The translations under genes were made by a program, and so were the position numbers. 24,099 bases of DNA from a virus. How positions within the stretch are numbered: the stretch's first letter is position 1; every line of letters starts with the position of its first letter. The stretch covers positions 1 through 24,099 of IMG/VR virus record IMGVR_UViG_3300030406_001326; one strand, given 5' to 3'. Of the stretch, positions 4,852 to 9,555 are shown one piece after another. The notes under the pieces were generated by a model. The model was given only the letters and a program-made list of their open reading frames with translations, was not told where the DNA came from and searched no databases.

Positions 4852-5556
4852 TTATTCCACTAATTCTTTTTTTATTTCTTTTATTACAAGTTTGTTTGTT
4901 TTTGTTTCGATAAATCTATTATATTTCTTTATTAATGGTATATTTTTCCACCACTCATTTGTTGTAGCACATGTATTTGCTATTTTTTTCAATGTCTTGT
5001 TTAAATTAAATCTTTTTAATTTTATTTTGTCATCTGTTAAAAATATAAAATATGCCATATGTTCATGTTCTTTTATTTTAAAATAGTTTCTTTGATTAAT
5101 TAATAACATTTCAAGATTTATCGGTCTAAACCACTTTGATATGTTAAATTTGCCGGGTATGACCAAACCGTAATCTGTATAATTTGTTTCTGAGAAAAAT
5201 GGAGATGTTAACATTATTTGTAAATCTTCTTCACAAAAGAAAATATAACTATTGCCATAAATCATTGTGTCATCAATGTATGTTATTACGTTTGAATTTT
5301 CAGATAAAAACTTAATCTTTTTATTTTGTATCTCAAATTCTGTAGATATAGGATTTTCTACATAATAAATATTTTTGGCTAAATTTGAAAATGCAGGACA
5401 TCTTGTTAAATTTTTAATTCTAACACCATTTCTGTTTGATACATCATTACTAATTTTGTTCAATAATTTATTAGGCTCTAAAAACATTATATTACAATGA
5501 TGAGTATCATCTTCATAACCAATTACTGGTGCCCAATAAACTGTTTTTGTACTCAT
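4852..5556 (-). CDS. Unknown phage protein (234 residues)
   Basis: I cannot assign a function. The protein begins MSTKTVYWAPVI and has a conserved-looking NLTRCPAFSNLAKNIYYVE stretch (about residues 49-67). A similar short block (RCPAF...N.Y.) appears, as far as I recall, in uncharacterised proteins of other marine phages. There is no signal peptide or membrane segment; the C-terminus is lysine-rich (about 185-234). It overlaps the ParB-like gene by four bases (ATGA) and ends three bases before the glycosyltransferase start, so the three are almost certainly cotranscribed. Being sandwiched between these enzymes suggests a role in the same cassette, for example as an accessory or acceptor-binding subunit, but nothing in the sequence shows this. 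Confidence 0.7.
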   Translation of the reverse strand: MSTKTVYWAPVIGYEDDTHHCNIMFLEPNKLLNKISNDVSNRNGVRIKNLTRCPAFSNLAKNIYYVENPISTEFEIQNKKIKFLSENSNVITYIDDTMIYGNSYIFFCEEDLQIMLTSPFFSETNYTDYGLVIPGKFNISKWFRPINLEMLLINQRNYFKIKEHEHMAYFIFLTDDKIKLKRFNLNKTLKKIANTCATTNEWWKNIPLIKKYNRFIETKTNKLVIKEIKKELVE

Positions 5557-6143
5557 TGATTCAACAATCTTTCTAGTGCTTCCTCATTTGTAGATACACT
5601 TGAATTGTCATCTATATATTGATTTAATTTTGCCATAATTTCTTGATATTTATCTAAATCTTCCCATGAAAACACAATTGATTTTGAATATTTATCTTGT
5701 TCAACCACTAAATCATTAAATTCTAAATCATCATTTTCTGTATCAAAATCTAATAAATTTTCTAATTCTGATTTTTCAAAGCCTGTTAATTCTAAATCAA
5801 ATTGTAAGTCTAAAAGTTCTTTTAATTCATCTCCTAGCAGGAAATAATCCCATTCTGAATCTTCATTTAATCTATTATCAGCAATTCTTAATGCTTTTAT
5901 TTGTTCATCATTTAATTTTTGTGTAACAACTGGTACATTTTTTAAACCTAATTCTTTTGATGCCATTAATCTTGTATGACCAATTATTACAACATCTTTT
6001 TCATCAACAACAATTGGTTGTGTAAATCCATATTCTTTTATTGATTGTGCAATCTTTCCAACTTTCTGATTTTTTCTTGGGTTTTTTTCGAATGGTATTA
6101 ATTCATTAATAGGTCGCATTTTAACTTGCATATCAATGTTCAT
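5553..6143 (-). CDS. ParB/Srx-fold protein (stand-alone ParB N-terminal domain)
   Basis: Residues 7-97 form a clear ParB-like domain: MRPINELIPFEKNPR at the start, SIKEYGFTQPIVVDE (34-48), the signature VVIIGHTRLMASKELG (51-66), then VPVV and DEQIKALRIADNRLNE. In phages this domain often precedes a DNA methyltransferase; here the protein stops at 196 residues with an acidic tail (about 100-196) and no methylase motifs. ParB/Srx-fold proteins can be CTPases, nucleases or kinases, often acting on DNA. The start at 6143 is fixed by a leader GGAGAAAACAG immediately before the ATG, a variant of the motif shared by many genes here. It is coupled to the unknown gene downstream by ATGA. Confidence 0.8.
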   Translation of the reverse strand: MNIDMQVKMRPINELIPFEKNPRKNQKVGKIAQSIKEYGFTQPIVVDEKDVVIIGHTRLMASKELGLKNVPVVTQKLNDEQIKALRIADNRLNEDSEWDYFLLGDELKELLDLQFDLELTGFEKSELENLLDFDTENDDLEFNDLVVEQDKYSKSIVFSWEDLDKYQEIMAKLNQYIDDNSSVSTNEEALERLLNQ

Positions 6144-6388: not shown

Positions 6389-6613
6389 CTAAAAAAGATT
6401 ATATTGTCCATCTTCTATTCTAATCATTTTCTTTTGTTCTTTACTGTTTCTAAGTTTATAAACATCTTCTATACTTAATTCATTTTCTCTTAATCTTTCA
6501 TAAAGAGTTAAATCTATAACTTTTACCTCAGACATAAGAGCCTCATATGCATCGTCCATAACCTCTTGTTGTTCAGGTGTAAGACCATTATGTAAAAATT
6601 CAATTTTGTTCAT
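6389..6613 (-). CDS. Small hypothetical protein (74 residues)
   Basis: A short, largely helical, charged protein (EQQEVMDDAYEALMSEV near residues 14-30, later RLRENELSIEDVYKLRNSKE) with no recognisable domain. It overlaps the 3' end of the primase-helicase gene by 14 bases and has the same orientation, so it is probably coupled to it. Its size and position, directly after the helicase, would suit a replication accessory factor, but this is guesswork. The next gene starts ten bases after its stop. Confidence 0.6.
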   Translation of the reverse strand: MNKIEFLHNGLTPEQQEVMDDAYEALMSEVKVIDLTLYERLRENELSIEDVYKLRNSKEQKKMIRIEDGQYNLF

Positions 6614-8336
6614 AACATCTAGTTTTAAAATTGAAAAAGAATTCTCTTTGTCCTATTTCTCCATAAACTCCTTGTTCTCTAATTTTTTTAGTTATAATTT
6701 TTGTAGTGTTATCTTCAAAATCTCTATGTATTACTAAACCTACATCTGCCATATTTGCCCAATGAGCAGAACCACTTACTTGATATAGATCAGGTGGTGG
6801 TATTACTCCTGCATCATTTCGGTGTAATTTATGAGGGTGTGCAACCATAAATATAATTATTTCATGGTTTCTAGCAAATTGCTGACATTTTGCTATTATA
6901 TCTCTAATGTGTTCATCTTCTCTTTTATGTGCATCTCTATCGGTACTAATTTGATTAAATGGATCAATTATTAATCCTTTTATGCCATGTCTTTGTTTAG
7001 ATGCTTTTGCTTTTGATAATATGTAATCAATAGTTGGTATGTCATCTTTTGCTTCAAGAAACTTAAAATGTGTATTTAAAAAATCAATACCAGCATTTAA
7101 TTGTTCCTGTGTCATTCTCTCATAAACACCTATATCAAATGGCTTTTTACATCTTTTTTCTAACAATCTTCTTATATGATTTGGTGTTGAATGTTCAGGT
7201 GAATATAATAAAAATCTCCAACCCTGTTGTTCTGCTAAATTCATCAATATTTGATCGAGAAAATTACTTTTCCCATGATTTGGTATACCTGTAATTAAAT
7301 TAAATGTACTTGGCATTATTTTATATATTTCATCTAATTTTTCAAAACCTGTTGAAATGGCTCTTTGTACATTGCCATCATACATATTCTGAACTTGATC
7401 ACGATATTCTATTGCAGAATGTAAATCTTGAATTGGAAATTCTTTTGCATTTTCAATTGATGTTTTTAATACATCTTCTCCATATATGATAAGACAATCA
7501 TTAGCATCTTTGATTTGTTTTTCTTCATCTGTTGTCATATCTTTGTAGGTAGGAAAATTAACAACTTTACAAACATCACGACCAAATCTATGTATCAACT
7601 CAAGTCTAAGAGCCTTTCCTGCATCATCATTATCTGTGGCAAGGATTACCTCTTCAGCATTCCATATCCATTCAGTAGGCTCAAACGCAGTAAATCTTTT
7701 ATCTTTCATATCAAATTTTGGTGTTTTAGGTGCACCATCTGGTAAAGATACAACATCATTTATGCCAATTTGCATAAGAGAAAGGACATCCATTTCGCCT
7801 TCTACGAATATAACTCTCTTTTTAGAATTAGGGTTTTCTTCCCAAACTTTCTTTAAATTATCTACATTGTATAAACATTTCATTGCATCTTTTTCTTGAT
7901 GAAAACGTTTATCTTTACTTCTATGTTTTATATTTACAATTTTACCATCAAGATAATATGGAAAACAAAGTTTCTCATTATGAGAATATAATTTCATTCT
8001 TGTTATAACTGTAGGGTCAATTTGTCTTTTTATTAACCAATTATATGCTTCATCGGATAATGTTTGTTGTTTTGGAACAAATGGCATCACATTTTCTTTT
8101 TTTGGTTTAAATTTTGAAAATTGATTTGGTTGAATCACATTATCATAAACTGCACCTTTCCAATCACAATGATGACAATGCCACATTGCAATGTCATTTT
8201 GTAAATTTACAGAAAGACAAGGCTCAGTTCTATTCTTAGTTCTTAAATGTGAACATTTTGGACAAGTAACTTTTTGTTGTTCTTGTTGTGAATTAACTCT
8301 AATGCCTTCTTGAATTAATTGTTCGTGTATATTCAT
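6600..8336 (-). CDS. Bifunctional DNA primase-helicase (T7 gp4-like)
   Basis: This replicative enzyme makes RNA primers and unwinds the fork. The N-terminal zinc-binding domain has CPKC (C25, C28) and WHCHHC (C54, C57). A TOPRIM primase core follows with VEGEMD (178-183) and ATDNDDAG (233-240). The C-terminal RecA-like helicase has Walker A GIPNHGKS (350-357), Walker B LIIDP (455-459) and a switch segment VAHPHK (498-503). At 578 residues it matches T7-type fused primase-helicases. The start at 8336 has a strong leader, GGGAGAAAACATCA before ATG. It lies directly downstream of the O-like initiator gene, so initiation and elongation functions are adjacent. Confidence 0.95.
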   Translation of the reverse strand: MNIHEQLIQEGIRVNSQQEQQKVTCPKCSHLRTKNRTEPCLSVNLQNDIAMWHCHHCDWKGAVYDNVIQPNQFSKFKPKKENVMPFVPKQQTLSDEAYNWLIKRQIDPTVITRMKLYSHNEKLCFPYYLDGKIVNIKHRSKDKRFHQEKDAMKCLYNVDNLKKVWEENPNSKKRVIFVEGEMDVLSLMQIGINDVVSLPDGAPKTPKFDMKDKRFTAFEPTEWIWNAEEVILATDNDDAGKALRLELIHRFGRDVCKVVNFPTYKDMTTDEEKQIKDANDCLIIYGEDVLKTSIENAKEFPIQDLHSAIEYRDQVQNMYDGNVQRAISTGFEKLDEIYKIMPSTFNLITGIPNHGKSNFLDQILMNLAEQQGWRFLLYSPEHSTPNHIRRLLEKRCKKPFDIGVYERMTQEQLNAGIDFLNTHFKFLEAKDDIPTIDYILSKAKASKQRHGIKGLIIDPFNQISTDRDAHKREDEHIRDIIAKCQQFARNHEIIIFMVAHPHKLHRNDAGVIPPPDLYQVSGSAHWANMADVGLVIHRDFEDNTTKIITKKIREQGVYGEIGQREFFFNFKTRCYEQN

Positions 8337-8354: not shown

Positions 8355-8984
8355 TTAACCAACTAATTGATTTAAATTTATTTTTCTTTTTTCGTCAACT
8401 GTTTCCCATCTTCTTTGATTTAACCATGTTGTGGCATGAGGTATAAATTTTTGGTCTTTGTCTTTTACACTTTGTTTATATTTTACAGTAAAACTATACA
8501 ATTCATCAAAATTTAAAATTTTATCAGTTACCTTTTCAAATAGATCAAATGCCTTTTTCTTTGAACCATCTTTTCTTGGATATAAATTCCACCACTCATT
8601 AAAATCATCTGTGTATATAATATGTTTATTATTATTGGTTATATGGGGTTTCGGTGTGATACTCTCGTGAGTGTCAATCTGATACTGATGAGTGTCTGTA
8701 TGACACCCTACCTGTAAATAATACATATTTGAAGTTTGTCTTTGTGTGTCATTTAAATAATTTTCATATCTATCTTTTACAATTATAAATTCTTTTTCTT
8801 TTAATGTTTTAATACACCTTATTATTGTTGAACGACTTAATTCTGTAATTTTCATAAGTGTTTTAAAACTTGGAAAACATTTATTTTCATCATCACAAAA
8901 GTTCGCCAATGTAATAAGAACTAATTTTAAATTACCGGAGCCTGTTTTTTGTTTTGATGCCCAATCTAATGCAGACCAACTCAT
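8355..8984 (-). CDS. Replication initiator-like protein with N-terminal helix-turn-helix (lambda O-like)
   Basis: A 209-residue protein. Residues 1-85 look like the winged HTH found in phage O-type replication proteins: LDWASKQKTGSGNLKLVLI, then CFPSFKTLMKITELSRSTII, then RCIKTLKEKEFIIVKDR. Residues about 128-200 form a second domain (FNEWWNLYPRKDGSKKKAF and HATTWLNQRRWE), which resembles the C-terminal part of such initiators. Between them is a low-complexity linker rich in His, Thr and Asp, encoded by a direct-repeat cluster resembling iterons. The RBS is GGAGATATT before the ATG at 8984, overlapping the end of the DUF1064 gene. Probable job: bind the origin and load the adjacent primase-helicase. 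Function is inferred from domain order and context. Confidence 0.75.
   Translation of the reverse strand: MSWSALDWASKQKTGSGNLKLVLITLANFCDDENKCFPSFKTLMKITELSRSTIIRCIKTLKEKEFIIVKDRYENYLNDTQRQTSNMYYLQVGCHTDTHQYQIDTHESITPKPHITNNNKHIIYTDDFNEWWNLYPRKDGSKKKAFDLFEKVTDKILNFDELYSFTVKYKQSVKDKDQKFIPHATTWLNQRRWETVDEKRKINLNQLVG
8657..8707. repeat. Direct-repeat (iteron-like) cluster inside the initiator gene; candidate replication origin
   Basis: On the plus strand, TGATACT (8657-8663) and TGAGTGTC (8668-8675) are repeated as TGATACT (8680-8686) and TGAGTGTC (8689-8696), then partly as TGACACC (8701-8707). TGATACTC and GAGTGTCA also form a near-perfect inverted repeat around TCGT. The cluster falls in the linker between the two domains of the O-like initiator gene, which is where lambda carries its ori iterons. 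Repeat spacing is 23 then 21 bases, about two helical turns. Binding by the initiator is inference. Confidence 0.5.
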
Positions 8985-9304
8985 AATATCTCCGTAATAA
9001 CAATAGGTGGATTATATGTTGATAATATTTTCTTTCTCAAAATATAATCTCGTGTTTTAGTTATTTTTGATTTTACATCTTCAATGATGGTTTCGCCTTT
9101 TCTATTTTTATATTTAAAATCGGCAGTATATCTACCTATTTTTGTGCCATTTACAATTAAAGGAAATTGTGGGTGTATTTCTAAATTAAAAATCATTCTT
9201 TGTTTTTCCATCTTTTCTAATATTAAATATCTTTGAAATTCTTTTTTAGAATCAAACCTCATTCCTTTGTAATATTGTTTTTTGGCGTGATATTTGTTCG
9301 GCAT
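8981..9304 (-). CDS. DUF1064 family nuclease-like protein
   Basis: A 107-residue protein matching the compact DUF1064 phage family, thought to be PD-(D/E)XK-type endonucleases possibly acting on recombination or replication intermediates. The start NKYHAKKQYYKGMRFDSKKE (residues 3-22) is characteristic. E22 lies in the first helix, D62 in RYTADFKY and D76-V-K78 in IIEDVKS, giving the catalytic pattern. I choose the ATG at 9304 (MPNKYHAK) over the upstream one at 9313 because the family begins with this motif and AGGAAGTG lies upstream. It overlaps the regulator gene by 53 bases and the initiator gene by four. The substrate is not shown by sequence. Confidence 0.8.
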   Translation of the reverse strand: MPNKYHAKKQYYKGMRFDSKKEFQRYLILEKMEKQRMIFNLEIHPQFPLIVNGTKIGRYTADFKYKNRKGETIIEDVKSKITKTRDYILRKKILSTYNPPIVITEIL

Positions 9305-9482
9305 ACAAATCACTTCCTGTTACTTGATTATCTGTAAATATAAAAATTCTTTCTGCATCTTTCCATCTTGGCAATCTATCGCCTTTCGCCCATGACTCAA
9401 CATTTCTATAATGTGTGCCAAATTCTCTTGCAAAACTTTTATAATTATAACCGTTTTTTCGTATGTATTCTTTTAATGTCAT
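9252..9482 (-). CDS. Small Cro/CI-like helix-turn-helix regulator
   Basis: A 76-residue protein starting at 9482 (MTLKEYIRKNGYNYKSFARE). Residues 1-45 look like a lambda-repressor-type HTH: YKSFAREFGTHYRNVESWAKG is the two-helix core, and RLPRWKDAERIF follows as in Cro/C1-type folds. It lacks a dimerisation or cleavage domain, so it resembles Cro more than CI. It is the first leftward gene and directly faces the first rightward promoter across a palindromic element repeated at two other promoters, making it the best candidate for the protein that binds there. An in-frame ATG upstream at 9539 would read through that palindrome and is unlikely. Binding is inference. Confidence 0.72.
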   Translation of the reverse strand: MTLKEYIRKNGYNYKSFAREFGTHYRNVESWAKGDRLPRWKDAERIFIFTDNQVTGSDLYAEQISRQKTILQRNEV

Positions 9483-9511
9483 ACTTATTTGTATAACAAA
9501 AAAAATAAAAT

Positions 9512-9555
9512 GTAAACACATTAAGTGTTGACTAAACAAAATAAATCCATATTAT
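9512..9555 (+). promoter_or_regulatory. Rightward early promoter with overlapping palindromic operator
   Basis: AACAC (9515-9519), five bases ATTAA, then GTGTT (9525-9529). Outer bases extend the symmetry: GTA before the left arm, and GAC after the right arm where perfect symmetry would give TAC. The -35 TTGACT (9528-9533) overlaps the right arm, and a -10 TATTAT (9550-9555) follows after 16 bases. It would drive the recombination genes from 9589. On the other strand, TTTACA beside the same palindrome with TATACA 15 bases on is a weaker candidate for the leftward promoter. Confidence 0.65.

Follow-up and report, generated by a model that had tools for sequence, protein, structure and literature searches.

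A candidate intragenic replication origin of the lambda type in the initiator gene of a marine phage

In this work, we describe a segment of DNA that is a candidate lambda-type replication origin lying inside the initiator gene of a marine phage, a reading to which we give a probability of roughly 0.88. The earlier note had inferred such an intragenic origin by analogy with lambda O, and our analysis supports that inference once the register of the repeats is corrected. The segment contains three imperfect palindromes of 19 bp that encode the disordered linker of an O-like protein and share, on the coding strand, the consensus GGGTRTCA-nnn-TGAYACCC. The window that we analyzed comprises 24,099 nucleotides (positions 1 to 24,099 of record IMGVR_UViG_3300030406_001326) and is part of a larger virus genome. 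Its terminase shares 73% identity with those of the Roseobacter phages CRP-901 and CRP-902, which are the nearest terminases. No O-like gene is named in the examined stretch of CRP-901; the annotation there gives a primase/polymerase and a helicase instead. A nucleotide search of the region among phage records gave no match, and a scan of genome contigs returned only distant or partial relatives. The segment offers a testable candidate origin for an uncultured marine phage group with a terminase nearest to those of these Roseobacter phages.

The gene that carries the palindromes (8355..8984, minus strand) encodes 209 amino acids. The earlier note, made from the letters of the window, had taken it for a replication initiator, and profile matches agree: the protein is O-like by its matches to HTH_36 (E 3.4e-13) and to phrog_270, a replication initiation protein family, which is its best PHROG family (E 9e-35) and covers residues 1-198, that is, most of the protein. 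The predicted model has two folded domains, a winged HTH (residues 1-90) and a helical domain starting at about residue 121, and pLDDT falls below 50 in the linker at residues 94-119. The iterons encode residues 93-113; the model thereby places them in an unstructured linker between the N-terminal HTH and the C-terminal domain, where they had been located before. The lambda O family, phrog_277, is absent among the 25 listed PHROG matches of the protein, and a profile-profile comparison with lambda O (hhalign) gave no meaningful match, direct homology not being found. The only matches common to both proteins are weaker ones, to phrog_391, phrog_678 and phrog_345. A sequence search of the PDB returned only a marginal match to TubR, and Foldseek against the same database returned only weak winged-helix matches (best E 2.8e-3), which include the DnaD N-domain and a Rep-DNA complex.

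The three iterons, listed on the minus strand, were placed in register by alignment with relatives. On the plus strand, iteron 1 (8690-8708) reads GAGTGTCTGTATGACACCC, iteron 2 (8669-8687) reads GAGTGTCAATCTGATACTG and iteron 3 (8646-8664) reads GGGTTTCGGTGTGATACTC; on the coding strand they read GGGTGTCATACAGACACTC, CAGTATCAGATTGACACTC and GAGTATCACACCGAAACCC, respectively. The spacing is 21 from the first to the second and 23 from the second to the third. Repeats had been reported before at 8657-8707, as two copies with a third partial one at a period of 23 bases. Repeats are indeed present there, but in another register, since the unit then chosen combines the right half of one palindrome with the left half of the following one. 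All three copies are complete, and the array starts 11 bases before 8657. The period of 23 is correct for the short element TGATACT (8657 and 8680) but not for TGAGTGTC (8668 and 8689), which repeats at 21; a further short element, TGACACC, is found at 8701.

Beside iteron 3 lies an AT-rich stretch (8614..8643), a candidate unwinding element. No other 30-mer of the gene is less stable (rank 0 of 601), and in the window only 0.1% of the 30-mers are. The effect is weaker in the genes L028, L029 and L120, with 33-35% of the windows of the gene being less stable. In nearly every gene, no other stretch as long as the iteron block is as rich in GC. In a comparison of 12 genes, amino-acid identity was 0.57 in the iteron segment, 0.52 in the segment downstream and 0.64 elsewhere, whereas synonymous codon identity was 0.72, 0.86 and 0.63, respectively. 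After correction for the amino acids, the ratio of observed to expected synonymous conservation reached 1.57 at iteron 3, the highest value, and 1.27 in the AT-rich segment (codons 114-127). Codons 103-123 form the most synonymously conserved run of 21 codons in the gene, with lower protein conservation in this run than in the rest. The earlier note had suggested looking in relatives for DNA that is more conserved than the protein. This pattern is found at iteron 3 and in the AT-rich stretch beside it; iterons 1 and 2, in the 12-gene comparison of distant relatives, have no synonymous conservation beyond expectation.

Relatives were collected from viral-contig scans at 97 to 47% identity, plus a few more. 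A matrix built from the three copies of the window alone was run on both strands of the relatives' loci (4-12.6 kb), and its best sites fell in the O linker, at gene nucleotides 274/277, 295/298 and 318/321. Both this matrix and the aligned linker sites indicate that the position and spacing of the repeats are common to the relatives, which bears out that part of the earlier reading. With the window-only matrix, the second site is weak in the L020, L024-type, L027, L030 and L040 genes, the second site of L034 is outside the top six matrix sites, and a single site was found in L109, whose iterons differ. The L046 gene carries four iteron copies. In each of six viral records of 32-53 kb, the motif (with three mismatches at most) is confined to one pair of sites, about 20-45 bp from each other, with the same sequences as the linker sites.

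Three natural recombinants (L020, L022 and L109) have a C-terminal domain of different origin, with the HTH and the iterons kept together. L020 matches L040 in its HTH (95% of amino acids) and iterons (97% of nucleotides) and the window in its C-terminal domain (91%), with a switch at codons 113-121 (Fisher p 1.4e-5 and 1e-10). L022 matches L043 in its HTH (85%) and iterons (84%) and the window in its C-terminal domain (78%); the Fisher p is 5e-8 against L043 but only 0.096 against the window. Between L109 and L046, the C-terminal domains are 98% alike, the HTH domains 66% and the iterons 49% (p 2e-9). Iteron likeness tracks HTH likeness given the C-terminal domain (partial Mantel p 0.0015), and it also tracks the C-terminal domain, more weakly. 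As far as sequence comparison goes, such joint inheritance would fit a matching of HTH and iterons; adjacency alone could keep both together. The recombinants provide ready pairs for matching HTH residues to the iteron bases that they read. In L109 (742-1395), the half-site differs (TAGTCA-nnn-TGAC) and so does the recognition helix, and the C-terminal domain is nearly identical to that of L046. The C-terminal exchange in all three recombinants lies around codons 113-121, at or near the conserved AT-rich stretch that follows iteron 3.

The palindromes could alternatively be operators rather than origin iterons, bound by a repressor that would be either the small HTH protein encoded at 9252-9539 or O itself acting as a regulator. 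Inverted repeats of this size are typical of operators, and the HTH gene, two genes upstream of the O-like gene, is conserved in relatives. We consider this reading very unlikely, because the sites lie about 275-340 nt within the gene rather than at a promoter, no comparable site occurs elsewhere in the six 32-53 kb records, the three evenly spaced copies adjoin unstable DNA, and the sites vary together with the HTH domain of O.

A candidate correspondence between the type of C-terminal domain and the primase-helicase was rejected, as the types do not follow each other. Compared with the window, L004 has 93% identity in the C-terminal domain and 69% in the primase-helicase, and L040 has 56% and 86%. 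L130-L140 and L075 (HTVC112P gp14) carry a C-terminal domain of the same type on an unrelated N-terminal domain (NKFHALQLFTDTF...), and these fusions suggest that the C-terminal domain may be a portable module. A broader scheme for these marine phages is possible, and we advance it tentatively, leaning somewhat against it. The HTH domain and the iterons would form a single exchangeable cassette, joined by recombination at the conserved AT-rich stretch to interchangeable C-terminal domains; origin specificity and helicase recruitment would evolve independently, and O would load a fused primase-helicase without a loader like lambda P.

As an origin, the segment would be bound by dimers of the O-like protein, whose N-terminal winged HTH would contact the three palindromic iterons of 19 bp, and the resulting complex would open the adjacent AT-rich stretch at 8614-8643. 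The C-terminal domain may in turn recruit the replicative helicase, which is the weakest step of the scheme. This helicase is probably the phage's own enzyme: the next gene downstream of the O-like gene (6600..8336, minus strand) encodes a primase-helicase with profile matches to TOPRIM and DnaB_C, the likely helicase to be loaded. A protein with a ParB N-terminal domain (PF02195, E 1.9e-10) is encoded near the replication genes, at 5553-6143 of the window, and also in most relatives.

The GC skew at fourfold sites, computed for the minus-strand genes on the two sides, was -0.25 and -0.26. Because the two values do not differ, there is no replichore signal, and this check, one of those proposed in the earlier note, gives no independent support for a start at this gene. 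This result, and the fact that the window covers only part of a larger genome, would accommodate a reading in which the functional start is at another place in the genome and the binding of O to the iterons serves to restrict initiation or set its timing. The adjoining stretch, unstable and synonymously conserved, nevertheless fits a start site, and we regard a start elsewhere as most improbable.

The evidence that the repeats constitute a DNA signal comes from tests of chance and of coding constraint, and the array stands far above the chance level. The motif with three mismatches at most is expected 0.07 times in the window and was found four times, three of them at the linker. The motif consensus from the alignment with relatives was built from the sequences that it scores; the motif-free recoding test and the window-only matrix avoid this for the relatives. 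The motif-free score rates how alike three 19-mers are when spaced 21 and 23, their reverse complements included. It is 87 at the array, the next best value in the window being 65 and the window mean 35 (sd 5.9). When codons were redrawn from the gene's own usage with the protein fixed, none of 5000 tries reached the combined score of the window gene. At fixed geometry, p was 0.002 or lower in 15 of 16 genes, the exception being L046 (p 0.058). In these 15 genes, coding for the protein does not by itself account for the repeats. A generic test for the best direct repeat over whole genes missed even the window's own repeats, being too weak because the iterons are palindromic and imperfect. In the distant O-like genes L049, L051, L071, L072, L080 and L083, direct repeats in the linker (codons ~97-121) also exceed synonymous recoding. 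That the repeats merely mirror a repetitive protein linker and have no role as DNA is scarcely credible: the linker does repeat every seven residues at the protein level (TDTH/IDTH), but synonymous recoding rarely or never yields the same repeat and palindrome, palindromy is not a property of proteins, and synonymous sites are conserved where the protein is less so.

The arrangement resembles that of lambda, in which the origin sits midway along gene O and the four annotated iterons are spaced 20, 24 and 23. The lambda iterons are described as 19-bp inverted repeats to which O dimers bind, beside a 40-bp A+T-rich region (PMC5043065; PMC7466680), and lambda O is said to have a DNA-binding N-terminus and a P-binding C-terminus with a flexible linker (PMC6022878). 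In the window, iterons of about 19 bp with inverted symmetry likewise lie in the middle of the initiator gene and are followed by an AT-rich tract, at spacings of 21 and 23 that are similar to the 20-24 bp of lambda. Unlike in lambda, the iterons have a different sequence and are three in number (four in L046) instead of four, homology with lambda O is found only through intermediate PHROG families, and a primase-helicase follows the O-like gene, with no P gene recognized.

P22 and phage L carry differing repeats within their initiator genes (gene 18), and the module includes a phage helicase gene (PMC8022706). The window shares with both an O-like initiator with its own intragenic repeats and the presence of such a helicase gene, but the repeats differ and the helicase is fused to a primase. 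In the case of ORF49 of the Lactococcus phage BK5-T, the best PHROG family is phrog_270 as well, and a repeat region is annotated in the middle of the gene; it consists of two identical direct repeats of 37 bases, 45 bases apart, whereas the window has three palindromes of 19 bp. As direct homology with lambda O was not found and the design is shared, the candidate would belong to an origin type already known, on another branch of O-like proteins. It would be a further example of the intragenic design of lambda, P22, phage L and probably BK5-T, and it would add phages with a primase-helicase to those that have lambda-like intragenic origins.
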